A stretch of 64,000 nucleotides of DNA from Clostridia bacterium. GTDB taxonomy: Bacteria > Bacillota > Clostridia > Oscillospirales > CAG-382. The notes under the pieces were generated by a model. The model ran no database searches. It had not been told where the DNA came from and worked only from the letters and a program-made list of their open reading frames with translations. A program made the position numbers and the translations under genes. This document shows, in pieces, positions 29,738-55,648 of this stretch. The DNA lies in NCBI GenBank assembly GCA_017397955.1, contig JAFQHL010000008.1, positions 1 through 64,000 of the forward strand, in the 5' to 3' direction. How positions within the stretch are numbered: position 1 is the first letter of the stretch; each line of letters begins with the position of its first letter.

Positions 29738-31111
29738 TTAGTCTTTTTGATTTAATATATGCCTTGCAACGTAAACGCCGCTGGCTGAAGCGTGGGACAG
29801 AGAATGGGTAACTCCGCTGCAATCGCCGATTACGTAAAGTCCTTTGTTTTTGGTTTGTAAGTTGTTGTCGATTTCAACCTCCATATTGTAGAACTTAACT
29901 TCTACACCGTAAAGGAGCGTATCATCGTTGGCTGTGCCGGGTGCAATTTTATCAAGCGCGTAAATCATTTCAATAATACCGTCAAGGATTCGCTTGGGCA
30001 TTACAAGGCTAAGGTCGCCGGGTGTTGCCGCAAGGGTGGGGGTAACATAGCTTTCGTTAATACGCGCTTCGTTACTGCGTCTGCCCCTTACAAGGTCACC
30101 AAAACGCTGCACTATAACACCGCCGCCCAACATATTTGAAAGTCTGGCAATGCTTTCGCCGTATCCGTTGCTGTCCTTAAACGGCTCGGAAAAATGCTTG
30201 CTTACCAAAAGCGCAAAATTTGTATTTTCCGTATGCTTGGACTTATCTTCGTAGCTGTGCCCGTTTACCGTAACAATGCCGTTGGTGTTTTCGTTAACAA
30301 CAACGCCGTTGGGATTCATACAGAAGGTACGCACCAGGTCTTCAAATTTCTCGGTGCGGTATACAATTTTACTTTCATAAAGCTCATCGGTAAGATGTGA
30401 GAATACAACGGCAGGCAACTCCACTCTTACACCTATGTCAACTCTGTTGGATTTGGTGGGAATGTCCATGGATTTACATACTCCCTCCATCCATTTGCTT
30501 CCGCTTCTCCCTACGGAGATAACGCATTTTTCGCAGGTATAAACGGTATCTTTGGTGTGCACTTCGTAGTTACCGTAATTGCCGCTGACGGAGTCAACGG
30601 GAGTGTTAAAGTGAAAATCGACTTTATCTTTCAACTCGTTATAAAGATTCTCCAAAACAATATAGTTAATATCGGTACCCAAATGTCTTACCTTTGCATC
30701 TAGCAAATGCAATCCGTTTTCAAGGCAACGTTTTTTTATTTCCGTATTGGCGGTAGAATAAAGTTTTGTGCCTTTGCCACCGTATGCAAGGTTTATATCG
30801 TCAACGTATCGCATAAGCTCAATGGCTTCGTTACTGCCTATGTGCTGGTACAAAGTGCCGCCAAAACGATTGGTTATATTGTATTTGCCGTCAGAAAAAG
30901 CACCGGCACCGCCGAACCCGCTCATAATGGCGCAGGTGGGACACTTAATACAGCTTTTAATTTTTTTGCCGTCAATGGGACATTTGCGCTTGCCTAAAGG
31001 ATTGCCCAGTTCAAAAACCGCAATCTTAATGTTTTCGTTAGCACGCGTAAGCTCATACGCTGTGAAAATACCGCCGGGACCGGCACCTATTATAATAACG
31101 TCATATTTCAT
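29738..31111 (-). CDS. FAD-dependent oxidoreductase, COG2509 type
   Basis: 457 residues. The N-terminal DVIIIGAGPGGIFTAYEL is the FAD-binding Rossmann motif. The family cysteine cluster is in KCPIDGKKIKSCIKCPTCAIMSGFGGAGAFSDGK. The C-terminal GLYVIGDCSGVTHSLSHASASGVYVA closes the FAD site. These features match the uncharacterized FAD-dependent dehydrogenases (COG2509), whose substrate I do not know. The start is set at MKYDVII, with AGAGG upstream; the frame runs 23 codons further without support and into the promoter. It is the first gene of the operon with MATE and LTA synthase. Confidence 0.87.
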   Translation of the reverse strand: MKYDVIIIGAGPGGIFTAYELTRANENIKIAVFELGNPLGKRKCPIDGKKIKSCIKCPTCAIMSGFGGAGAFSDGKYNITNRFGGTLYQHIGSNEAIELMRYVDDINLAYGGKGTKLYSTANTEIKKRCLENGLHLLDAKVRHLGTDINYIVLENLYNELKDKVDFHFNTPVDSVSGNYGNYEVHTKDTVYTCEKCVISVGRSGSKWMEGVCKSMDIPTKSNRVDIGVRVELPAVVFSHLTDELYESKIVYRTEKFEDLVRTFCMNPNGVVVNENTNGIVTVNGHSYEDKSKHTENTNFALLVSKHFSEPFKDSNGYGESIARLSNMLGGGVIVQRFGDLVRGRRSNEARINESYVTPTLAATPGDLSLVMPKRILDGIIEMIYALDKIAPGTANDDTLLYGVEVKFYNMEVEIDNNLQTKNKGLYVIGDCSGVTHSLSHASASGVYVARHILNQKD

Positions 31112-31170
31112 TTCAATCGCCTCTTTATTCAATCTTATTATCTGGTTTTGCACATCAAATACCAAACTAT

Positions 31171-31234: not shown

Positions 31235-31263
31235 TTGACAAAACAGGTCGAATGTTATAGAAT
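31235..31263 (+). promoter_or_regulatory. Sigma-A promoter of the CARF nuclease operon
   Basis: TTGACA (31235-31240), 17 bases, TAGAAT (31258-31263). The transcript start would lie only about 15 bases before the GTG/ATG start region, so the leader is very short. Confidence 0.75.
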
Positions 31264-31284: not shown

Positions 31285-32508
31285 ATGACGGTTGTGGAAT
31301 TTTTTGCCTGCGCCCCCATAGAGAATATGGTAAGCTGCTTTTTGTTAAAACCGGATAAAGTAATATTTATCGGCGGCGGCAGACGTGCAAAACGCAGGAT
31401 GCATGCATACGGTGAGCTTGCACGTAGAAAGGGAATAAACGCTGTTTTTGAGCACCGCGCCGTCCTCGGAAATTCTATTAACAGTATAGCGGATTGCCTT
31501 GTGGATATAGTAGAAACCGAGGAAGAGTGTTGCTTTGACCTTACAGGCGGTGATGATTTGGCACTGGTTGCCATGGGACTGGTGTATGAGCGTTACAGAG
31601 GTGTAAAAAAATTGCAGATGCACCGCTATAACTTCAACAGTAGAAAAATGACCGATTGTGACGGCGATGGCTTTATAAGCAAATCTATGCCGTTTTCTGA
31701 GCTTACGGTTGATGAAAATATTGCTTTGCACGGCGGCACGGTTGCAGGTGGCCTTCGTAAGGATAAACTTGGCGAAAGAAAAGATATAGAAGACTTGTGG
31801 ACTGTGTGCAAAGCCGCACCCTTTGATTGGAACAGAAGCACCGCCGCTCTTTCGGAGTTGATTTGCGTGGCACGTTTTTCTTCCGACGGACTTAAGGTGT
31901 CTATCGAAAGTGAAGAGGCCAAGCGTCGTTTTACGGATTATGAAAAACGCAAGAACAATGCGCTTCGTTTTTTAAGCAAGCTTAGTAAAGCGGGGATTGT
32001 ATACAACATTGTAGAAAGCAAAAATCATTTTTCATTTTTTTATAAAAATTCTTTTGTAAAAAAAGCACTCTCCAAGTCGGGTAACGTCCTTGAATATAAA
32101 ATGCTTTCACTTGCTTCGGAGGCAAAGGACAAAAATTTATCTCCCTTGTTTACCGACTGTGTCGGAGGCGTGGTTATTGATTGGGATGGGCTTATTGCAG
32201 GTGCAGGCGTATCCTTTGGCGGGACCGTTAACGAAGTGGACTTGATTTTAATGAAAGGGCTTATACCTGTTTTTGTTTCCTGCAAAAACGGCGGAGTAGC
32301 GGAGGAAGAGCTTTATAAGCTAAACACCGTTGCCGCCAGATTCGGTAACAGGTATGCAAAGAAAGTGCTTGTAGCCTCCGGTCTTAACAAAAAAGGGCAA
32401 GGCCTTGAATATTTTAAAGCGAGAGCGGCAGAAATGGGAATAGTGCTTGTGGAAAAGGCTCACAGGATGACAGACAAAGAGCTTTTGGAAGTTTTGTTAA
32501 AAATATAA
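31285..32508 (+). CDS. CARF-domain endonuclease, Card1/Can2 (DUF1887) type
   Basis: 407 residues. The N-terminal half (about 1-150) is a CARF-like Rossmann domain with VIFIGGGRRAKRR and the ligand-loop motif DLTGGDD (85-91). The C-terminal half (about 265-407) is a PD-(D/E)xK-type nuclease: VLEYKM with Glu270, the metal Asp in NEVDL (316-320, Asp319), then FVSCKNG with Lys334, then EEELYKL (341-347). In family knowledge, cyclic tetra-adenylate from type III CRISPR complexes activates such enzymes to cut RNA and single-stranded or supercoiled DNA. The usual Glu of ExK is Ser332 here, while a helix Glu (340-342) may stand in. No cas gene or array is in the window. I start at the ATG at 31285 (GAGG nine bases upstream); a GTG at 31279 is possible. 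It is followed in operon by UPF0237 and UPF0210 genes. Confidence 0.85.
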   Translation: MTVVEFFACAPIENMVSCFLLKPDKVIFIGGGRRAKRRMHAYGELARRKGINAVFEHRAVLGNSINSIADCLVDIVETEEECCFDLTGGDDLALVAMGLVYERYRGVKKLQMHRYNFNSRKMTDCDGDGFISKSMPFSELTVDENIALHGGTVAGGLRKDKLGERKDIEDLWTVCKAAPFDWNRSTAALSELICVARFSSDGLKVSIESEEAKRRFTDYEKRKNNALRFLSKLSKAGIVYNIVESKNHFSFFYKNSFVKKALSKSGNVLEYKMLSLASEAKDKNLSPLFTDCVGGVVIDWDGLIAGAGVSFGGTVNEVDLILMKGLIPVFVSCKNGGVAEEELYKLNTVAARFGNRYAKKVLVASGLNKKGQGLEYFKARAAEMGIVLVEKAHRMTDKELLEVLLKI

Positions 32509-32528: not shown

Positions 32529-32798
32529 ATGAATGCGGTTATAACCGTAACAGGAAAAGATAATAAGGGCATTATAGCCAAGGTAAGTGCTGTGTGCACA
32601 GAGCATGGGGTAAATATCATAGATATTTCTCAAAGCGTACTAAGGGATTATTTTGTAATGTTTATGATAGCTGATATCGGTGAGATGAAGATAAAACTTG
32701 CTGATTTTGTTGATGTTATGAATGCATTGGCGGATGAAAATGCTTTGAAGATACAGACGATGCATGAAGATATTTTTAATGCAATGCACAGAATATAG
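32529..32798 (+). CDS. ACT-domain protein, UPF0237 family
   Basis: 89 residues comprising a single ACT domain: [21 protein letters not shown] starts it, and [21 protein letters not shown] follows as the second strand-helix unit. ACT domains bind amino acids or related ligands. UPF0237 genes are commonly next to a UPF0210 gene, as here (11 bases apart), so the two are probably functional partners. AGAGGTG precedes the ATG. The gap after the CARF nuclease is 20 bases with no terminator. Confidence 0.9.
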
Positions 32799-32809: not shown

Positions 32810-34165
32810 GTGATTAACATAGGCGATATTCTCGAAACCGTTAATATGATAAGCAACGACCACCTTGATATACGAACAATAACAATGGGTATATCTTTGT
32901 TGGATTGCGGCGGCAGCGGCGCATTGTTTGCAGATAAAATATACGATAAAATTACCCGCAGAGCAGAAAGACTTGTTGCTGTTGGTGAAGAGATAGAAAA
33001 AGAATACGGTATTCCCATAATAAATAAGCGCGTGTCCGTAACTCCTATCGCTATTGCGGGCGCAGGTTTGGATGTGGAAGGCTTTGTTTCTGCTGCTAAA
33101 GCAATGGACAGAGCTGCCGAGACCTTGGGTATTAACTTTATAGGTGGCTACAGTGCTTTGGTGCAAAAAGGTATGACCGATGCAGACAGAGCTTTGATTG
33201 CATCCATACCTCAAGCTTTGGCAGAAACTGCAAGGGTGTGCTCTTCCGTGAATATTGGCTCAACAAAATCCGGTATAAATATGGATGCAGTAAAGGAGCT
33301 TGGCGAAATTATTCTTAAAACCGCGTATCTTACAAAGGACAGCAGCTCTATTGGTTGTGCAAAGCTTGTGGTTTTTGCCAACGCACCCGATGATAATCCC
33401 TTTATGGCAGGTGCTTTCCACGGCGTGGGAGAGGGGGAGACAATACTTAATGTCGGCGTTTCCGGTCCGGGTGTTGTTAAAACTGCGGTCGAAAAACTTA
33501 GTGGCGGTGATTTGGAGAAACTGTCCGAAGAGATAAAGCGCACGGCATTTAAAATCACAAGAGTTGGTCAACTTGTAGCTCTTGAAGCAAGTCGCAGATT
33601 GGGTGTACCCTTTGGTATTGTTGACCTGTCTTTGGCGCCTACGCCCGCTGTAGGCGATTCCGTTGCCGAAATCCTTGAAGCGATGGGTATAGGTCAATGC
33701 GGCGGTTGCGGCACTACCGCGGCACTTGCCATGCTTAACGATGCGGTTAAAAAAGGTGGCGTAATGGCATCATCTAAGGTTGGGGGGCTTTCCGGTGCCT
33801 TTATTCCCGTATCCGAGGATGCAGGTATGATAAAAGCCGTAAACGACGGCGTGCTTTCTTTGGAAAAGCTGGAGGCTATGACTGCAGTATGCTCTGTAGG
33901 ACTTGATATGATAGCAGTCCCCGGAGATACGCCTGCTGCAGTGCTTTCAGCAATGATAGCGGATGAAGCTGCAATAGGTGTTATAAACTCCAAAACAACT
34001 GCTGTAAGAGTTATTCCTGCTTACGGCAAGTCTGTTGGCGACAGCGTGGATTTCGGCGGCTTGCTTGGCAGTGCGCCTGTTATGAGAATCAGTTCTTGCG
34101 ATCCCTCCGTCTTTGTTAACAGGGGCGGTATAATCCCTGCGCCAATACATTCGCTTAAGAATTGA
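32810..34165 (+). CDS. UPF0210 (DUF711, PFL-like) protein
   Basis: 451 residues, beginning [32 protein letters not shown] and containing [15 protein letters not shown], both typical of DUF711/UPF0210, whose fold resembles pyruvate formate-lyase but which lacks a known radical-activating context. Near the C-terminus lie [22 protein letters not shown] and AVPGDTPA. Start is GTG with a purine-rich GGGGGTAG ahead. It ends the operon (strong terminator). Function is unknown; a regulatory partnership with the ACT protein is the usual suggestion. Confidence 0.9.
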
Positions 34166-34383: not shown

Positions 34384-37300
34384 TTGGATATGAGTTTCAA
34401 ACAAAGGCTATCTGCGTTTTTAGCTGTTTCAATGATACTGTCGTTGTTTACCGCCTACCCGGTTATAAGCGGTTCTGCGGCAAGCACTCTTGAAAGTACG
34501 GTCTATTACATAGACCATAGTGCAGGTTTTGTATATGATGTTGACGATGGCACAACCGTTGCCCAGCTTAAGCAAAACTTGGAAAATAGCGCCGGTGATT
34601 TAACCGTTTACGATTTGAGCGGTGAAGAGCTTGGCGATACTTACCGTGTTTCTACGGGCTTTACCGTTTCATGCAGTGGTGAAACTGCCACTATTTTGGT
34701 AAAGGGTGATAATAACAGCGACGGTGTTATCTCCACGGTAGACGTTCTTTCCGTTTCTCGCTACTTGTCGGGTTATGAGATTTTTAACGATGCTTTGGAT
34801 GCCGCATCCGATGTTGACTATGATGGTATAGTATCTACTACCGACTTTGCTATTATGCGTAATCACTTGGCAGGCAAGGGCGATATTGGTGACTTTAAGC
34901 ATCCCAAGACCCCCACAGGCGGCGGATCCGACAGTTCTGAAGACAGTATTGAAGAAAGCAGTACAGTTGTTAAGAATTATACTGTAAGCTTTTCTGCGGA
35001 AGAAGGCGGTGCTTTGTCCGGCAACACTCAGCAGGTGGTTGCTTCCGGCACAAGCTTTTCCGCTATTACCGTACCTACCGTTTCTTGCGATGCGGGGTAT
35101 ATTTTTACGGGTTGGACCCCCGATTTCCCGGATGTGGTTACCTCCGATTTAAGTTTTACCGCAAACTTTGAAAAGGGCGTAATATCCACTGAAGAACTTA
35201 ACTACGCCAGCGCGGATATGGGCGGTCAGTATATGTTTACTGTAGGTGCGCCTTACGACCCCTTGCTTGATTCTTTTGATGCGGCTGAAGAATACGGCAG
35301 CGGTTATCTTAACGACGGCATCATGCTAACCGATACCGACGATGATTGGGTTGAGGCATCTCGCTCCAACTCCCAGATAGTTATAACCGTTAAACTGGCG
35401 CAGACCGTTACCGTAACTAAGGCGGTTATAAACTGCGGTTTGCTGAAATGGGCAACAAACCGTGTTCTTCCCGATAGTGTTACCGTTTATACAGGTGTTG
35501 ATGGCGGGGAAGATGTGTACTATGGTACGACTTCCGCGTATACAGCTATCGGCGATTATGGCTATACTGCTACCATCGTTCCTCAGGGAGAAGCTGTTCA
35601 GGCAGACTATGTTAAGTTTGTTTGCCCTATGAGTGCTTTTATAGGCAGATTTGGCGAAGTGGAAGTTTACGGTATCGGCAACGGAACTGCCTCCTACGAT
35701 ATAAGCTTTGTTGCAGGTGAAAACGGTACACTTCAAGGCACGTATGAGTACACTGTTGACGGTGGTACACTTTGGAGTGAGATAACCGTTCCCACGCCCG
35801 TTGCGGCCAGTGGCTACAAGTTTGTCGGCTGGTCTCCCGCACTTCCTTCAAATGGTTCTGCGATTAACGCCGATGCTACATACATCGCACAGTTTGATGT
35901 TGATGACAGCCAGTATGTAACCGTTAACTTTGTTGCAGGTGCAAACGGTACAGTAAATGGCCAAAGCAGCTTTACCGTTATTAAGGGTACTGCGTGGTCT
36001 GAAATTTCCGTTCCCACACCTACGGCAAACGCAGGCTACAAGTTCAGTGCTTGGTCTCCTGTATTCCCTGCAAAGGTAACAGAAGATGCAACCTATACAG
36101 CTCAATTTGTTTACGATGAAACTCAATATGCTACCATAAACTTTGTTGCAGGCGCAAACGGCACAATCAGCGGCACGACAAGCGTTACCGCGCTTATAGG
36201 CAGCTCGTTTGCCGATATTACGCTTCCTGCAACTAATGCAAACACAGGTTATAAATTCAGTGGTTGGTCTCCCGCACTTCCTGACAAGGTAACGGGCGAT
36301 GCAACTTATACCGCAGAATTCGTAGTTGACGAAAGTCAGTATGCAACCATTACCTTTGTTGCAGGTGCAAACGGCACAATCAGCGGTACAAAGACCTTCA
36401 CCGTGCTCAAGGGTACTGAATGGAGCAAAATTACCGTTCCTTCCTATCAAGCAAATGATGGTTATAAGTTCGTTTCCTGGTCTCCTGCGTTCCCCGCAAC
36501 CATAAATGAGGATGCTACATATACGGCAACCTTCGCTGTTGATAACGCGCAGTACGCAACTGTAGTATTTGTTGCAGGCGCAAACGGCACAATCAGCGGC
36601 ACCAACACATTTACCGTTCTCAAGGGCACTTCTTGGAACGATATAGATGTTCCCACGCCCGTTGCAAACGCAGGTTATAAATTTGACGGTTGGTCTGCTT
36701 CTTTCCCCGCAACAATCAACGACGATGCAACCTTTACAGCTAACTTTGTATACGATGCAAGCCAGTACGCAACCGTTACCTTCGTTGCAGGTGCAAACGG
36801 TACAATCGGCGGTACAAGCACATTTACAGTTCTCAAGGGGACTGCTTGGTCTGCAATTACCGTTCCCACAACAACTGCAAACGCAGGCTATAAGTTTAGC
36901 GCTTGGTCGCCTTCATTCCCTGCAACGGTAACAGCAGATGCTACTTATACAGCTAACTTCGTTTACGATGCTTCTCAGTACGCAACCGTTACATTTGTTG
37001 CCGGTGCAAACGGTACAATCAGCGGCACAAAGACTTTCACCGTACTTAAGGGTACTGCTTGGTCTGCAATCACCGTTCCTACCGCCACCGCTAATGTGGG
37101 CTATAAGTTCAGCGCGTGGTCGCCGTCCTTCCCCGCAACGGTAACGGAAGACGCTACTTATACAGCAAACTTTGTTTACGATGCAAGCCAGTTTGCTACA
37201 ATTACCTTCGTAGCCGGCTCTAACGGTACAATCAGCGGAACAAGCACATTCACAGTGCTCAAGGGCTCCGCATGGTCTGTAATCACCGTTCCTTCTGCAA

Positions 37301-40300
37301 CAGCAAACGCAGGCTACAAGTTTAGCGCTTGGTCGCCTTCCTTCCCCACAACAATAACCACAAGCGCAACCTATACCGCAAACTTTGAATATGATGCAAC
37401 GCAGTACGCAACAGTAAGCTTTGCAGCAGGTGAAAACGGTAGCCTCAGCGGCGCAACCGCGTTCACCGTTCTAAAGGGCACCGCTTGGTCAGCTATATCT
37501 GTTCCTTCTCCCGTTGCAAACGATGGCTACAGATTCAGCGATTGGAGCGGCACATTCCCCTCAACAATTACTGCGGATGTAAGCTTTACAGCAAGATTTG
37601 AGAAGATACCTACATATTCCATCGTATTCGTAGCAGGTTCTAACGGCTCTTTGGTGGGCACTTGGGCGTTTGATGATGTTGAAGAAGGTACAATATGGAG
37701 TAACGCAATTACAGTTCCTACTCCTGTTGCAAACGCAGGTTATGTATTTGACAGTTGGACACCTGCGCTTCCTTCCGATGACAGCACAATCAACGCAAGC
37801 GTAACCTACACAGCACTGTTCGTTATCGAAGAGGTTGGTTCTTACCGTGAGAACTATGCTTCTGCCGCAAACGGCGGTACCTATGCATACTATGTAGGCA
37901 CTAAGCTTGATACCTACGACGACACAATCTTCGAAACCAAGAGCACCGAATCTATGAGAGTAAGCTTTTCCTCTACTACATTGAGCTTCGGTAACGGTTA
38001 TCTTAACGACAATTCACAGGTTATTCTCAGCGACGGCAACTGGGTAGAGCGTGCCCGCGGTTCAACGGGCGGTTTCCAAAGCCAGAGCAATGTAATTATC
38101 ATTATTGTTAAGCTTGAATCTGCTAAGTCTGATATAGAACAGGTTGTAATCAACCTCGGTACACCTGCAGCTTCCGGTAACAGAGGTTTGCCCGATAATG
38201 TTACCGTTAAGTACACCACAAGAACATCGCTCAGCAGCAATGTTTCGTGGACAACCATGGGCAGCACGGTTACAAACTACGAACATATAAGCGGTTACGG
38301 ATATCAGGCTGTTATTGAGAACGATGCGACAAACAGGTCTATTAAGTACCTGCAAATTACAATGTCCATGAGCACCTATTACGCTGCAAGAATCGGCGAA
38401 ATAGAAGTTCTGGGCCCCGAAGTTAACACAACGGTTCACAGTGTAAACTTTGTTGCGGGCGCAAATGGTAAACTCAGCGGCACTACCTCCTTCGGTGTTC
38501 CCGACGGTGATACCTTCGCTTCCGTTACCGTTCCCACTCCCGTAGCAAACGATGGCTACAGATTCTCTCACTGGTCTCCCGAACTTCCTTCCACTTCTTC
38601 TGAGGTAACTGCTTCTGCTGTTTATACAGCTGTGTTTACCGAAAAGATTGGCGGCGAAGAACTTAACTATGCTTTAGACAAAAACGGCGGCCAGTACATG
38701 GTTACCACAGGTACTGTACAGACCGGATTCCCCGATTCCTTCGATTCGGGCTCTGCTTATGGCAGCGGTTACCTCAACGACGGCAAGTGGTTGGAAAACA
38801 CAGATGATGCTTGGGTAGAAGTTTCCAGAAGCAGCAATATTATAGGCGTAACATTCAAGCTTTCTGCTCCCATCACAATGACCAGTACGGTTATGAACTT
38901 TGGCTTGAGAGAAGGGTCTGGAAACCGTGCACTTCCCGATAGTGTTACCGTTTATGTAGGTTCTTCCGCAAGTAACATATCAACAGTGTTTGGTACAACC
39001 TCAAACTTTACTGCAAACTCCGATTACGGATATACAGCAACCGTTAACGGTACTGCTGAAGAAGTTTCTTATGTATACTTCGAATGTACCATGAGCCAGT
39101 ATATAGGCAGACTTGGCGAATTTGAAATCTGGGGTGCAGAAGGCGAAGTTGTTCCCACCTATACAGTAAGCTTTAACGCAGGTACTAACGGTACGGTAAC
39201 TGGTGAAACCTATCATACCGTTGCAGAAGGCACTTTGTGGAGCGAGATTGAAGTTCCCACCGCAACCGCAAAACCCGGTTATGTATTCAGCGGTTGGACA
39301 CCTTCTCTTCCTGCAGATAACGAAGCTATTACAGGCAACCTCAGCTTTACCGCAACCTTCACCTATGACGCTTCTCAGTGGCGTACGGTAACTTTCGTAG
39401 CAGGTGCCGGCGGTACACTCAGCGGCACGACAAGCGTTTCCGTTCCTACAGGCACCGCTTGGTCCACCATTACCGTTCCTACTGTTGTGGAAAATGACGG
39501 CTACACATTCACAGGTTGGTCTCCCGAATTCCCCACAACCATCACTGCAAACGCAACCTATACCGCAAACTTTATCGTTACCCCTGCCGACCAGTATGTA
39601 ATCACATTCAAGGCGGGCACAGGCGGTAAGCTCAGCGGCACCACGGTTATCAGTGTTGATGAAGGCACACTCTGGAGCACAATCACATTGCCCACACCTG
39701 TGGCAAACAGCGGTTATGTGTTCACATCATGGACACCCAGCCTGCCCGACGGCACAATGGAAATAACCGATAATCTTACATTCACCGCAAACTTCGCTGT
39801 TGACAACGGTCAGACTCTTGAAGGCGTAATTTATATCAACGGCGTTAACGCAAGCCAGTACATCTCCGGCGGTTCCCATATTTACACCCTCAACTACGGT
39901 TCTGCATTTACAGCTACCTATTGGGAAGTTTATGTTGCAGGCTATTCCGAAGCTAAGGGCGGCTATATAGTAACCGAAAAATATGCAACAGGCACTACAA
40001 AATCTGTTGAGGTTCCCGCAAACGGTATAGTAATCGCCGTTCACATGGGCACCCAGACCCAGGCAGCTTGTGCTTATGTTGATGTGGGCGACTTGCTTGT
40101 TCTTACCGAGGACATTAACCTCACCAGCGCTACTTGCGTGGCAGGTTCGTCCTATGTGGCTATCTATACCGGCGACGGTACCCAGCCCGACGGCAGCGGA
40201 AGCACCGACGAGCCCGAAAACCCGTCCGTTGACCCCAGTGAATATCAGCAGCTTAACTACTCTCATGTTAAGGGCATGTGGCTGTCTCAGTTCGACCTCA

Positions 40301-41439
40301 GCAATGTGTTTATGTCAAACTCTGCTCAGCGTTCCGAGGCAAGCTATAGATCTCTCATGACTACAATTCTTGATAATTGTAAGAATATCGGCATAAATAC
40401 ACTGTTCGTTCAGGTAAGACCTAACGGTGACAGTATGTATCCCTCCGAATACTATACCGCAAGTAAGTATGTTGTAGGCGCATACGGCAGGACACACTCC
40501 TATGACCCGTTCGCTATCATCATAGAACTGGCACACGCTCGCGATATGTCTGTTCAGGCGTGGATCAACCCTCTCAGACTTATGAGCTCTACCGATATAG
40601 CTAATGTAAGCACCAGCTTTAAGGTAGGCGAGTGGTATCAGAGTTCCACTTACAACGGCAAGTATGTTGTTCTTTATAGCAGCTACTATTACCTTAACCC
40701 CGCTTATGCAGATGTTCGTCAGCTTATTATCGACGGTGCAAAGGAAATTTGTACTCTCTATAATGTAGACGGCGTTCACATGGACGACTACTTCTATCCC
40801 ACCACAGCTAGCTCCTTCGACTCTGCGGCGTATAACGAATACTCCGGCAGTCTGTCTCTTGCTAACTGGCGCAGAGATAATCTTAACAAGTTGGTAAGCG
40901 GCATTTACAGCGCAGTTAAGTCTGTGGATCAGGACATCCTGTTCGGTATTTCTCCCGCTGGTAATATGAGTACCGTTTACAACTCTCAGTATGCAGATGT
41001 TTACACATGGTGCTCTACCTCCGGATATATCGATTATATCTGTCCTCAGGTATACTTCGGTATGCTTCACAATTCTCAAGGCTTCGGCTCTTGCTCTACA
41101 GGTTGGTCTAACATTGTCAAGACTTCCTCCGTAACTCTTTACACTGGTTTGACTCTTGGTAAGGCTTTGGATGGCTACAGCGGTACCATTGATACTTACG
41201 CAGGCTCTACCGAAGCACAGTATGAGTGGGTTAACAACCGAGATGTTATCAAGTCTTCGCTCGAATATGTTCGCGACAGCTTGCCTAAGTGCACAGGCGT
41301 AGTATTCTTTTGTTATCAGTACTTCTATTCGCCTACGACGGGCTCTGCAATAGCAGCAACAGCCGAAGAACGCGCTAATATGCAACCTGTACTGGATGCA
41401 TTGTTCCCAAACACTACTGTAAAAAGTAATGTAGAATAA
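34384..41439 (+). CDS. Giant secreted GHL10 glycosidase-like protein with dockerin-like module, 15 B-repeats and discoidin-like domains
   Basis: 2351 residues. A signal peptide covers about 1-33. A dockerin-like pair of calcium loops lies at about 107-165 (DNNSDGVISTVDVL and DVDYDGIVSTTDFA). Fifteen InlB-type B-repeats (core FVAGANGTISG...W), eight of them consecutive, separate three discoidin-like domains at about 270-430, 1150-1343 and 1423-1585, each with SGYLNDG or NGYLND. The C-terminal domain (about 1958-2320) is GHL10 (YngK-like): VKGMWLSQFD, TLFVQVRPNGDSMYPS, VDGVHMDDYFYP and DYICPQVYFG. It likely acts on cell-surface or host glycans. No sorting signal is present. Start is TTG (34384, GGAG five bases before) or ATG 34390. 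Upstream, TTGACA (34279) and TATACT (34325) are out of register, so the promoter is unresolved. Confidence 0.88.
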   Translation: MDMSFKQRLSAFLAVSMILSLFTAYPVISGSAASTLESTVYYIDHSAGFVYDVDDGTTVAQLKQNLENSAGDLTVYDLSGEELGDTYRVSTGFTVSCSGETATILVKGDNNSDGVISTVDVLSVSRYLSGYEIFNDALDAASDVDYDGIVSTTDFAIMRNHLAGKGDIGDFKHPKTPTGGGSDSSEDSIEESSTVVKNYTVSFSAEEGGALSGNTQQVVASGTSFSAITVPTVSCDAGYIFTGWTPDFPDVVTSDLSFTANFEKGVISTEELNYASADMGGQYMFTVGAPYDPLLDSFDAAEEYGSGYLNDGIMLTDTDDDWVEASRSNSQIVITVKLAQTVTVTKAVINCGLLKWATNRVLPDSVTVYTGVDGGEDVYYGTTSAYTAIGDYGYTATIVPQGEAVQADYVKFVCPMSAFIGRFGEVEVYGIGNGTASYDISFVAGENGTLQGTYEYTVDGGTLWSEITVPTPVAASGYKFVGWSPALPSNGSAINADATYIAQFDVDDSQYVTVNFVAGANGTVNGQSSFTVIKGTAWSEISVPTPTANAGYKFSAWSPVFPAKVTEDATYTAQFVYDETQYATINFVAGANGTISGTTSVTALIGSSFADITLPATNANTGYKFSGWSPALPDKVTGDATYTAEFVVDESQYATITFVAGANGTISGTKTFTVLKGTEWSKITVPSYQANDGYKFVSWSPAFPATINEDATYTATFAVDNAQYATVVFVAGANGTISGTNTFTVLKGTSWNDIDVPTPVANAGYKFDGWSASFPATINDDATFTANFVYDASQYATVTFVAGANGTIGGTSTFTVLKGTAWSAITVPTTTANAGYKFSAWSPSFPATVTADATYTANFVYDASQYATVTFVAGANGTISGTKTFTVLKGTAWSAITVPTATANVGYKFSAWSPSFPATVTEDATYTANFVYDASQFATITFVAGSNGTISGTSTFTVLKGSAWSVITVPSATANAGYKFSAWSPSFPTTITTSATYTANFEYDATQYATVSFAAGENGSLSGATAFTVLKGTAWSAISVPSPVANDGYRFSDWSGTFPSTITADVSFTARFEKIPTYSIVFVAGSNGSLVGTWAFDDVEEGTIWSNAITVPTPVANAGYVFDSWTPALPSDDSTINASVTYTALFVIEEVGSYRENYASAANGGTYAYYVGTKLDTYDDTIFETKSTESMRVSFSSTTLSFGNGYLNDNSQVILSDGNWVERARGSTGGFQSQSNVIIIIVKLESAKSDIEQVVINLGTPAASGNRGLPDNVTVKYTTRTSLSSNVSWTTMGSTVTNYEHISGYGYQAVIENDATNRSIKYLQITMSMSTYYAARIGEIEVLGPEVNTTVHSVNFVAGANGKLSGTTSFGVPDGDTFASVTVPTPVANDGYRFSHWSPELPSTSSEVTASAVYTAVFTEKIGGEELNYALDKNGGQYMVTTGTVQTGFPDSFDSGSAYGSGYLNDGKWLENTDDAWVEVSRSSNIIGVTFKLSAPITMTSTVMNFGLREGSGNRALPDSVTVYVGSSASNISTVFGTTSNFTANSDYGYTATVNGTAEEVSYVYFECTMSQYIGRLGEFEIWGAEGEVVPTYTVSFNAGTNGTVTGETYHTVAEGTLWSEIEVPTATAKPGYVFSGWTPSLPADNEAITGNLSFTATFTYDASQWRTVTFVAGAGGTLSGTTSVSVPTGTAWSTITVPTVVENDGYTFTGWSPEFPTTITANATYTANFIVTPADQYVITFKAGTGGKLSGTTVISVDEGTLWSTITLPTPVANSGYVFTSWTPSLPDGTMEITDNLTFTANFAVDNGQTLEGVIYINGVNASQYISGGSHIYTLNYGSAFTATYWEVYVAGYSEAKGGYIVTEKYATGTTKSVEVPANGIVIAVHMGTQTQAACAYVDVGDLLVLTEDINLTSATCVAGSSYVAIYTGDGTQPDGSGSTDEPENPSVDPSEYQQLNYSHVKGMWLSQFDLSNVFMSNSAQRSEASYRSLMTTILDNCKNIGINTLFVQVRPNGDSMYPSEYYTASKYVVGAYGRTHSYDPFAIIIELAHARDMSVQAWINPLRLMSSTDIANVSTSFKVGEWYQSSTYNGKYVVLYSSYYYLNPAYADVRQLIIDGAKEICTLYNVDGVHMDDYFYPTTASSFDSAAYNEYSGSLSLANWRRDNLNKLVSGIYSAVKSVDQDILFGISPAGNMSTVYNSQYADVYTWCSTSGYIDYICPQVYFGMLHNSQGFGSCSTGWSNIVKTSSVTLYTGLTLGKALDGYSGTIDTYAGSTEAQYEWVNNRDVIKSSLEYVRDSLPKCTGVVFFCYQYFYSPTTGSAIAATAEERANMQPVLDALFPNTTVKSNVE
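35914..37617 (+). repeat. Eight tandem 213-base B-repeat units inside the GHL10 gene
   Basis: Eight consecutive copies of a 71-residue unit, with starts near 35917, 36127, 36340, 36553, 36766, 36979, 37192 and 37405. They show the pattern YATVTFVAGANGTISG, TVLKGTAWS, GYKFSAWSP and ATYTANFVYD. DNA identity between neighbours 36766-37190 is high, indicating recent duplication; outer copies diverge. All are in frame. Confidence 0.9.
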
Positions 41440-53410: not shown

Positions 53411-55648
53411 TTAAAACTCGGTAATAAGCTGTGCATCAAACTTTAATATTTGTGCCGCATCAAGGCTGTTAACTACGCCGTCGCCGTTAATGTCAGCCGC
53501 CGCAAGTCCTTCACCTGCAAGAGTAATGAGCTGTGCATCGTGCTTAAGCACCTGAGCAGCATCAAGGCTGTTGACTATACCGTCGCCGTTGACTTCTCCT
53601 ATGAGTCGGCAGGATTCCTCTTCAGTGTTGATTGAATCGATTTCCATGATAAAACCTTTAATATTTGCATTCGCTTCGTTAAAATCGTTCCATTCAAAGG
53701 GAAACGTTCCCAAATACATTTCCACGCCGTCCATGTAGTTTGGTTCTCCTTGGAGCCAATACGTATATTCAAAAGGTTCGCCGGTTACCCACTCCCATAT
53801 CCCGTCTTGATCTTCATCCGAAGCTCCGAGCCATAAAGGTACGCCCTCTATGTTTAATGAATCTATATCCGCCTGTTCATTTTCATCAGAAACGGTCAAA
53901 AGATGACCGCCATTAGCTTCACAAAATTCTTTAGCAGCCCTCCACGAAATATTTTCGTCGTCCACACGGTACAATATGCACACACGACCGTCAAAGTCCT
54001 CTTGACTTCGCACTTCATAGATTCTGGAATAATATCGCGCTGTGACAGTAAGGTCAGAGGTTATGTTACTGTAATCGACATCCCATTCTATAAAGGTGCA
54101 ACCTGAATGATAAGGGGGGACGGGAGCTATTGCGGCAGAACCATAAGCAACTGTTTGTGTGCTTATAACGGTGTTGTCCCAATCCATAAATGTTACGGTG
54201 TATGAGCTTGTAGCGTAAACTGCCGTTGTGACGATGTCGGTTGTGACGTTTGTATAAGGAGTATCCCAATAAGAGAAAGTATAGCCTTCGCTTGTGGGAT
54301 TGGCAGGAGGTGTAGCGGAACCGCCGTAGGGAACGGTTTCTGTTTTAAGTACTACGCCGTTGTAATCCGTAAAGGTAACGGTGTAAGCCGCAGGCGCCCA
54401 CACTGCGTAAAGGGTTGTATTTCTGTTGTAAGTAAAACTGCTCCCTGCATAGTATGCAGGATATGTGGAATTTGGATTTTCAGACCACCCGAGGAATACA
54501 TAGCCGTCACGGGTGGGGTGAGTAGTGCTTAATATAAGCTCTTCGTCATAGTTTTTCACTTGCATCGATGGTGCGCCGTACCCGCCGTTCGCATCGTAGG
54601 CAACCGTACTTTGTACTGACCAAATTTGGTTATTACTTCCGGTATAAGTTTGAACGATTACGTTTTGATTGGATTCAACCGTCATAGCGCAGCTTGTATT
54701 CATAACGTTGCGTATTACGTAGCCGCCGCTTACTTTTTCAAAATACCACCACTCAGAGGTCTCGCCGAGATCATCGTAAATGTTAACGTTACAGCCGCTT
54801 GATACAGTGTTTCCGTAAGAGTTTATGACTCTTGAAACACATAACTCAGGTCTAAGCTTGTATGCACCGTTGCTATTGACATTTATAAAATTCATTTGGA
54901 ATTCAACAGGCTCGTTTACGGAAGGGAAAGAAAGCTGCCAAGTTCCAACGTTTTGTGTTTGCGCATCTTTGCAACCATTAACGGATAAGTATAGGCCATC
55001 ATAATTGTTCTTAATGTAGTACATACCTTCGGCAAAGGTGGAGTAGGTGGGGGAAGGAGTTTGCTGCGAATTAAAAACTGAATCATACGAAGTTGCGTGG
55101 TAAATTTTTTGTATAGATACTTTTGATTTTGCAAGTGCATAATTATATAAAACTTTATTCGTAGTGCCAGAATCTCCGTTTGAATGGTAAATGTAATAAT
55201 AAGTAGCGTCTTCTCCTAAATATATAAAATAATGGTTACCGCCCGTTGATTTCCATTTCATATGAACGGCATCTCCAACAGAGGGGGATGAAACAACAGT
55301 TGCAGTTCTCCAGTTTTGACCAAAGATATAACCAAAACAATATGTAACAAAACCGTTGCAGGAATGTCCATTTCCAATACCCATATTTAGTATATCTCGG
55401 CCAGAAGGAAGACCACCACGAGAGGGTATTTCGGACATACTGTCTTCGCAATCGTATGCAGGATATGTACACCCTGCATCATCAAATGCGTTTCCGCTTC
55501 TTGTAAAATATGAACCTGTTGGATAAACTGCCACTAAATCATTAATTTTAGACTGAACTCCGTTTGTCGCGCTTGCGTTTAACGTACTAAAAGAAACGAG
55601 AGTGATTAACAGAACTAGTGTGAGCAACAAAGAAATGATTTTTTTCAT
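53411..55648 (-). CDS. Secreted papain-like hydrolase/lectin protein with B-repeats, C-type lectin and dockerin
   Basis: 745 residues. The signal peptide ends near 27 (LNASA). The N-terminal domain has GHSCNGFVTYC with Cys97 and GGNHYFIYLGED with His139, the Cys-His arrangement of CHAP/NlpC-type amidases or peptidases. A ricin-type beta-trefoil lectin region (about 205-345) follows, ending NQIWSVQ. Three Listeria-Bacteroides repeats come next (about 350-550), then a C-type lectin-like domain (about 560-680; GGHLLTVSDENEQ, then WLGASDEDQDGIWEWVTGEPF). The last 60 residues are a type I dockerin with two calcium loops (VNGDGIVNSLDAAQ and INGDGVVNSLDAAQ). It suggests assembly onto a cohesin scaffold not in this window. 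GGAG precedes the ATG. Confidence 0.88.
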   Translation of the reverse strand: MKKIISLLLTLVLLITLVSFSTLNASATNGVQSKINDLVAVYPTGSYFTRSGNAFDDAGCTYPAYDCEDSMSEIPSRGGLPSGRDILNMGIGNGHSCNGFVTYCFGYIFGQNWRTATVVSSPSVGDAVHMKWKSTGGNHYFIYLGEDATYYYIYHSNGDSGTTNKVLYNYALAKSKVSIQKIYHATSYDSVFNSQQTPSPTYSTFAEGMYYIKNNYDGLYLSVNGCKDAQTQNVGTWQLSFPSVNEPVEFQMNFINVNSNGAYKLRPELCVSRVINSYGNTVSSGCNVNIYDDLGETSEWWYFEKVSGGYVIRNVMNTSCAMTVESNQNVIVQTYTGSNNQIWSVQSTVAYDANGGYGAPSMQVKNYDEELILSTTHPTRDGYVFLGWSENPNSTYPAYYAGSSFTYNRNTTLYAVWAPAAYTVTFTDYNGVVLKTETVPYGGSATPPANPTSEGYTFSYWDTPYTNVTTDIVTTAVYATSSYTVTFMDWDNTVISTQTVAYGSAAIAPVPPYHSGCTFIEWDVDYSNITSDLTVTARYYSRIYEVRSQEDFDGRVCILYRVDDENISWRAAKEFCEANGGHLLTVSDENEQADIDSLNIEGVPLWLGASDEDQDGIWEWVTGEPFEYTYWLQGEPNYMDGVEMYLGTFPFEWNDFNEANANIKGFIMEIDSINTEEESCRLIGEVNGDGIVNSLDAAQVLKHDAQLITLAGEGLAAADINGDGVVNSLDAAQILKFDAQLITEF

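Follow-up and report, generated by a model that had tools for sequence, protein, structure and literature searches.

We begin with the closest described relatives of the protein considered here. In the type III CRISPR effector Can2, the cA4 contacts that are common to Can1 and Can2 are made by Ser19, Thr42, Lys99 and Tyr118 in Can2 numbering (PMC7969007). VC1899, an orphan with the same contacts lost, is not regulated by cA4 (PMC7969007), and for CARF families without a Lys or Arg after strand 4 other ligands have been suggested (PMC4012209). CARF proteins outside CRISPR are already known, while their ligands mostly are not. A second signal has been described in type III-B systems: in B. fragilis, SAM-AMP is what the CorA effector responds to. 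According to PMC10600005, SAM-AMP is the signal made by CorA-1 type III-B systems, and the Cas10s that use SAM have acidic residues where the ATP-using ones have basic residues, SAM taking the place of the triphosphate. Some CorA clades may use cA6 (PMC11229360).

The gene of interest lies in a 64-kb stretch of DNA (the window, meaning the whole stretch that was analysed) from a MAG of 1.9 Mb in 70 contigs, 91% complete, where it is present in a single copy. Its reading frame runs on the plus strand from an ATG at 31285 to a stop codon ending at 32508 and encodes 407 residues; the coordinates and all the motifs named in the original prediction, DLTGGDD (residues 85-91), Glu270, NEVDL (316-320) and SCK (332-334), are found in it exactly. 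The features of the locus are collected in Table 1.

Table 1. Features of the CARF nuclease locus and of related operons; positions refer to the window unless a locus is named.
Feature	Position	Strand	Basis or remark
FAD-dependent oxidoreductase-like neighbour, divergent	29741..31114	-	context only
Sigma-70-like promoter, TTGACA-17-TAGAAT, 11/12	31235..31263	+	pattern match only
E-type CARF4/DUF1887 CARF-PD-(D/E)xK nuclease, 407 aa	31285..32508	+	profile and fold matches
CARF (Rossmann) domain, ~residues 1-152	31285..31740	+	alignment to Can2; boundary approximate
Nuclease catalytic residues E270, D291, E317/D319, S332-C333-K334	32092..32290	+	family conservation
ACT-domain protein, 89 aa, 20 bp downstream of the nuclease gene	32529..32798	+	synteny kept in genus
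DUF711 (PF05167) protein, 451 aa, co-directional, 11 bp after the ACT gene	32810..34165	+	synteny kept in genus
E-type CARF nucleases in type III-B Cmr operons	L112:4433-13387, L138:2770-13006, L139:1611-9800		two with CorA-like genes

The two halves that had been read from the motifs, a Rossmann half and a nuclease half, are borne out by several comparisons. The PADLOC CARF4--CARF_PDDEXK models cover residues 2-395 of the window protein (E=2.2e-22), and a profile of the 34-member family matches Can2 (7bdv, 1.4e-16) and VC1899 (1xmx, 1.5e-16) in the PDB, both over nearly their full length, as well as chains 8bao and 8z4i (Cdn1). A separate hhalign alignment to Can2 gives the same register as the profile search. 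A Pfam search with the window protein alone returns no match, whereas 29 of the 34 family members do match Pfam Card1_endonuc. The AlphaFold2 model of the window protein, of low confidence (pLDDT 58.6), retrieves both Card1 and Can2: its top 11 PDB folds, the only strong ones, are VC1899, Can2, Card1 and related chains. At that pLDDT the model is too weak for pocket geometry. The likeness to the CARF-nuclease family is beyond chance, and the window protein is a member of DUF1887/CARF4, with an N-terminal CARF Rossmann domain and a C-terminal PD-(D/E)xK nuclease.

We turn to the ligand pocket. In the aligned register, Can2 Ser19, Thr42, Lys99 and Tyr118 correspond to A8, G31, D91 and R114 of the window protein, the Can2 TGGTK segment that contains Lys99 lying opposite T87-G88-G89-D90-D91. 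All four cA4-contact residues are replaced, and where Can2 has the lysine that grips phosphate the window protein has Asp91. At position 91, 35 of 42 family members have an acidic residue (22 Glu, 13 Asp), and 32 have Asp at position 8. Four residues of the CARF half, E5, N14, G89 and G150, are invariant across the same 42, which suggests that a function is retained there. In the nuclease half, E270, E317 and D319 are present in 42/42 members and D291 in 39/42, and S332 and K334 occur in all 41 members where the position is present. The dN/dS of the window gene against its relative L001 is ~0.12, with synonymous sites near saturation. Judged from the invariant nuclease residues and the changed but conserved pocket positions, the predicted nuclease site is kept and the predicted ligand site is altered yet conserved. 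With its sensing pocket changed, the protein probably answers a different signal, most likely one other than cA4. The original prediction had allowed for a response to a cyclic oligoadenylate and had named a pocket lacking ligand residues as counter-evidence; since all four conserved cA4 ligand residues are missing, such a response is disfavoured. A Lys or Arg stands at position 90 in ten members and R114 recurs in many, and either of these might still grip phosphate.

The phylogeny places the window protein within the E-type clade and not with Can2 and the G-T-K relatives. The E-type sequences form one clade apart from the Can2, G-T-K and LSNG sequences (branch 100/99, and 80/99 in a larger tree), in trees that include Can2 and not Card1 itself. 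Within the clade, long branches leave the deep placement uncertain. By these trees E-type is a distinct, well-supported branch of the DUF1887/CARF4 family, and the earlier assignment to the "Card1/Can2 type" fits the fold and the family but misses the subtype. A further orphan-like group is also seen (L096, L098, L099, L101 and the divergent L095), in which LSNGNP or LSNGHP replaces TGGTK, with LAGG in L095; no strong Cas10 match is found in the genomes of this five-member intermediate LSNG-like group.

The next question is whether CRISPR components accompany the gene. Cas10 (PF22335), Cas1 (PF01867) and Cas3_HD have no match in the 91%-complete window genome, while control genomes are positive; the Cas10 cyclase that would mark a cA4-activated effector of the Can2/Card1 kind is absent within the limits of this MAG. 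The SMODS profile (PF18144) likewise has no match in the genome, and CBASS based on this CD-NTase family is not indicated. The 64-kb window has no array-like direct repeats, and none of its 20 other large ORFs has a PADLOC match below 1e-10. The absence of CRISPR near the gene, on which the original prediction rested its orphan status, stands. The orphan reading is supported for the whole available genome and also for the 15 other family-level carriers of the gene, three from the genus and twelve from the family, none of which has Cas10. Two 68-nt direct repeats (79%) with a spacing of 102 nt occur at 53421-53590, inside a minus-strand ORF. A defence island was considered and rejected, as the window contains no defence genes and the neighbours of homologs are mostly housekeeping genes; a phage-borne origin was also set aside, since the family profile found no relative in a single scan of viral_contigs.

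Across the class, 45 of 391 genomes carry a match, and in the family 16 of 63 do; 33 class genomes have strong matches (E <1e-18) and make up the E-type genomes. PF22335 also draws short GGDEF-like matches at weak E-values, and for this reason only strong matches with full coverage are counted as Cas10. By hand counts of this kind, Cas10 is present in 2/33 E-type genomes against 44/358 of the others (Fisher p=0.40), and in both of the former (G139 and G161) it lies on a different contig from the nuclease gene. The more distant canonical G-T-K relatives, which serve as a positive control, have a Cas10 match in 7 of 7 cases, on the same contig and within ~18 kb. E-type genomes thus show no enrichment of Cas10, and the E-type branch lives mostly without CRISPR.

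The clade is not wholly free of CRISPR, since three E-type members of one other family (G760, G843 and G1009) form a 100/100 subclade whose genes all lie within type III-B operons, a sub-lineage that the earlier reading did not foresee. In G760 the genes run CARF nuclease, CorA-like, Cmr1, Cas10, Cmr3, Cmr4, Cmr6, a small protein and Cas6, and G843 has the same order. The small protein before Cas6 in G760 has a DEDD-like look by eye, on which Pfam is silent. G1009 has Cmr genes, Cas6 and the CARF nuclease, and CorA is absent from the stretch examined. A degraded remnant of a CARF nuclease with Cas6 is seen at a lost type III locus in another genome (G840, L140:10231-11016).

In the window, the nuclease gene probably heads a short operon, because the ACT gene follows at 20 bp and the DUF711 gene a further 11 bp on. 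The original prediction had the gene promoted separately; a good sigma-70-like site does precede it, but the spacing downstream speaks for transcription together with the two genes. Among homologs, the genus keeps ACT-DUF711, while relatives outside it have other neighbours. Most genes beside E-type members serve metabolism, the envelope or information processing, and no partner recurs; among them are genes for D-aminoacyl-tRNA deacylase, RNase H-like and threonyl-tRNA synthetase proteins (all named by eye). As the neighbours differ outside the genus, the nuclease gene probably acts alone. ACT-DUF711 was rejected as a functional partner, the linkage being confined to the genus and DUF711 being present also in family genomes where no CARF gene is detected; ACT adjoins DUF711 in one of the two such genomes checked. 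In G291 (L053:6576-9059) the reading frame of an E-type CARF nuclease continues into that of a CCA tRNA nucleotidyltransferase-like protein, 827 aa in all, through a fusion or a lost stop. Further along the window, 34384-41439 encodes a protein of 2351 aa that combines a dockerin-like domain, numerous InlB-type repeats and, at its C-terminus, a GHL10 domain.

The altered pocket, the orphan status and the type III-B sub-lineage lead us to propose that the window gene encodes a chromosomal, CRISPR-independent, ligand-gated nuclease of the E-type branch whose ligand would be other than cA4, a reading that we hold at odds of about two in three and that leans on analogy with Can2 and Card1. By that analogy, the protein would work as a dimer, a small ligand bound across the two CARF domains would open the PD-(D/E)xK cleft, and the opened cleft would nick DNA and/or cut RNA, by which the cell would be slowed or killed. 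The ligand would be a small molecule, probably containing adenine; that it is made without Cas10 in the window genome is supported within the limits of the MAG. Alternatively, the protein could be a routine ancillary effector, activated by cyclic oligoadenylate, of a type III CRISPR system elsewhere in the genome. The fold family is that of Can2 and Card1, a locus could be missing from a 91%-complete MAG, and Cas10 does occur, on a contig other than that of the nuclease gene, in G139 and G161; against this, the searches for Cas10, Cas1 and Cas3_HD are negative, all fifteen related carriers are without Cas10, and the cA4 contacts are lost, which makes this role very unlikely.

It is also conceivable, though unlikely, that the nuclease has lost its ligand gating and performs a low-activity or housekeeping role in nucleic-acid repair or RNA turnover, much like VC1899, which has residual cA4-independent RNase activity (PMC7969007). 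The non-defence neighbourhoods, the genes named by eye above and the in-frame join in G291 fit such a role, while the patchy spread over family and class is unlike that of a housekeeping gene and the four invariant CARF residues suggest a function for that half. A different ligand is the subject of another, rather improbable, alternative: E-type CARFs may sense SAM-AMP or a cationic adenosyl nucleotide related to it, and in the orphans a SAM-derived or SAM-AMP-like molecule would be made, or have been lost, without Cas10. Every E-type member linked to CRISPR belongs to a type III-B operon; two of these operons encode CorA and the DEDD-like small protein, and in G1009, whose stretch has no CorA gene, the E-type nuclease is the visible effector candidate. 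CorA-1 systems of this type make SAM-AMP, and the Lys-to-acid change parallels the acidic residues of SAM-using Cas10s (PMC10600005), a parallel that is suggestive, nothing more. On the other side, the DEDD identity was assigned by eye and is unconfirmed by Pfam, some CorA clades may use cA6 (PMC11229360), and the acidic residue is clade-wide, including genomes without a known SAM-AMP maker. Excerpts of the SAM-AMP/CorA literature searched describe no CARF nuclease as a SAM-AMP effector. A SAM-AMP-like ligand is possible. Speculatively, and with low expectation, E-type could even be a separate sensor class for SAM-AMP or another cationic adenosyl nucleotide, which would stand beside or replace CorA in type III-B systems and would serve CRISPR-free Clostridia as a defence or stress system of one gene, set off by a SAM-linked nucleotide that is produced outside CRISPR.

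Returning to the ligand-gated nuclease, the E-type clade offers a clear test set: dozens of orphans share a conserved altered pocket, and for the three relatives in type III-B operons the product of Cas10 is open to preparation and assay. Should the CRISPR-linked members prove to respond to SAM-AMP, the CARF fold would have a new class of ligand, and the existence of the orphans would imply a signalling enzyme that is still to be discovered.

Finally, we compare the window protein with the known systems. With the DUF1887 type III effectors Can2 (7bdv) and Card1 (6wxw, 6xl1) it has in common the CARF plus PD-(D/E)xK architecture, the NExD..xCK nuclease motif and the overall fold; it differs in the loss of the S19/T42/K99/Y118 contacts, in having no Cas10 partner and in belonging to a separate clade. 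The CorA/SAM-AMP type III-B systems are linked to it through the three relatives encoded in such operons, two with CorA; among the relatives, Cas10 and CorA occur together in G760 and G843 only, whereas no Cas10 is detected in the window genome. The RtcR and Rv2818 CARF families are also without the canonical Lys/Arg and are thought to read other ligands (PMC4012209), but RtcR is a transcription activator and the window protein a predicted nuclease. The orphan DUF1887 protein VC1899 (1xmx) is the best fold match and joint-best sequence match, and like the window protein it is without type III CRISPR and has lost the cA4 pocket but kept the nuclease; where Can2 has the Lys, VC1899 retains Arg96, and in the tree it falls with Can2, whereas the window protein groups with the E-type clade.
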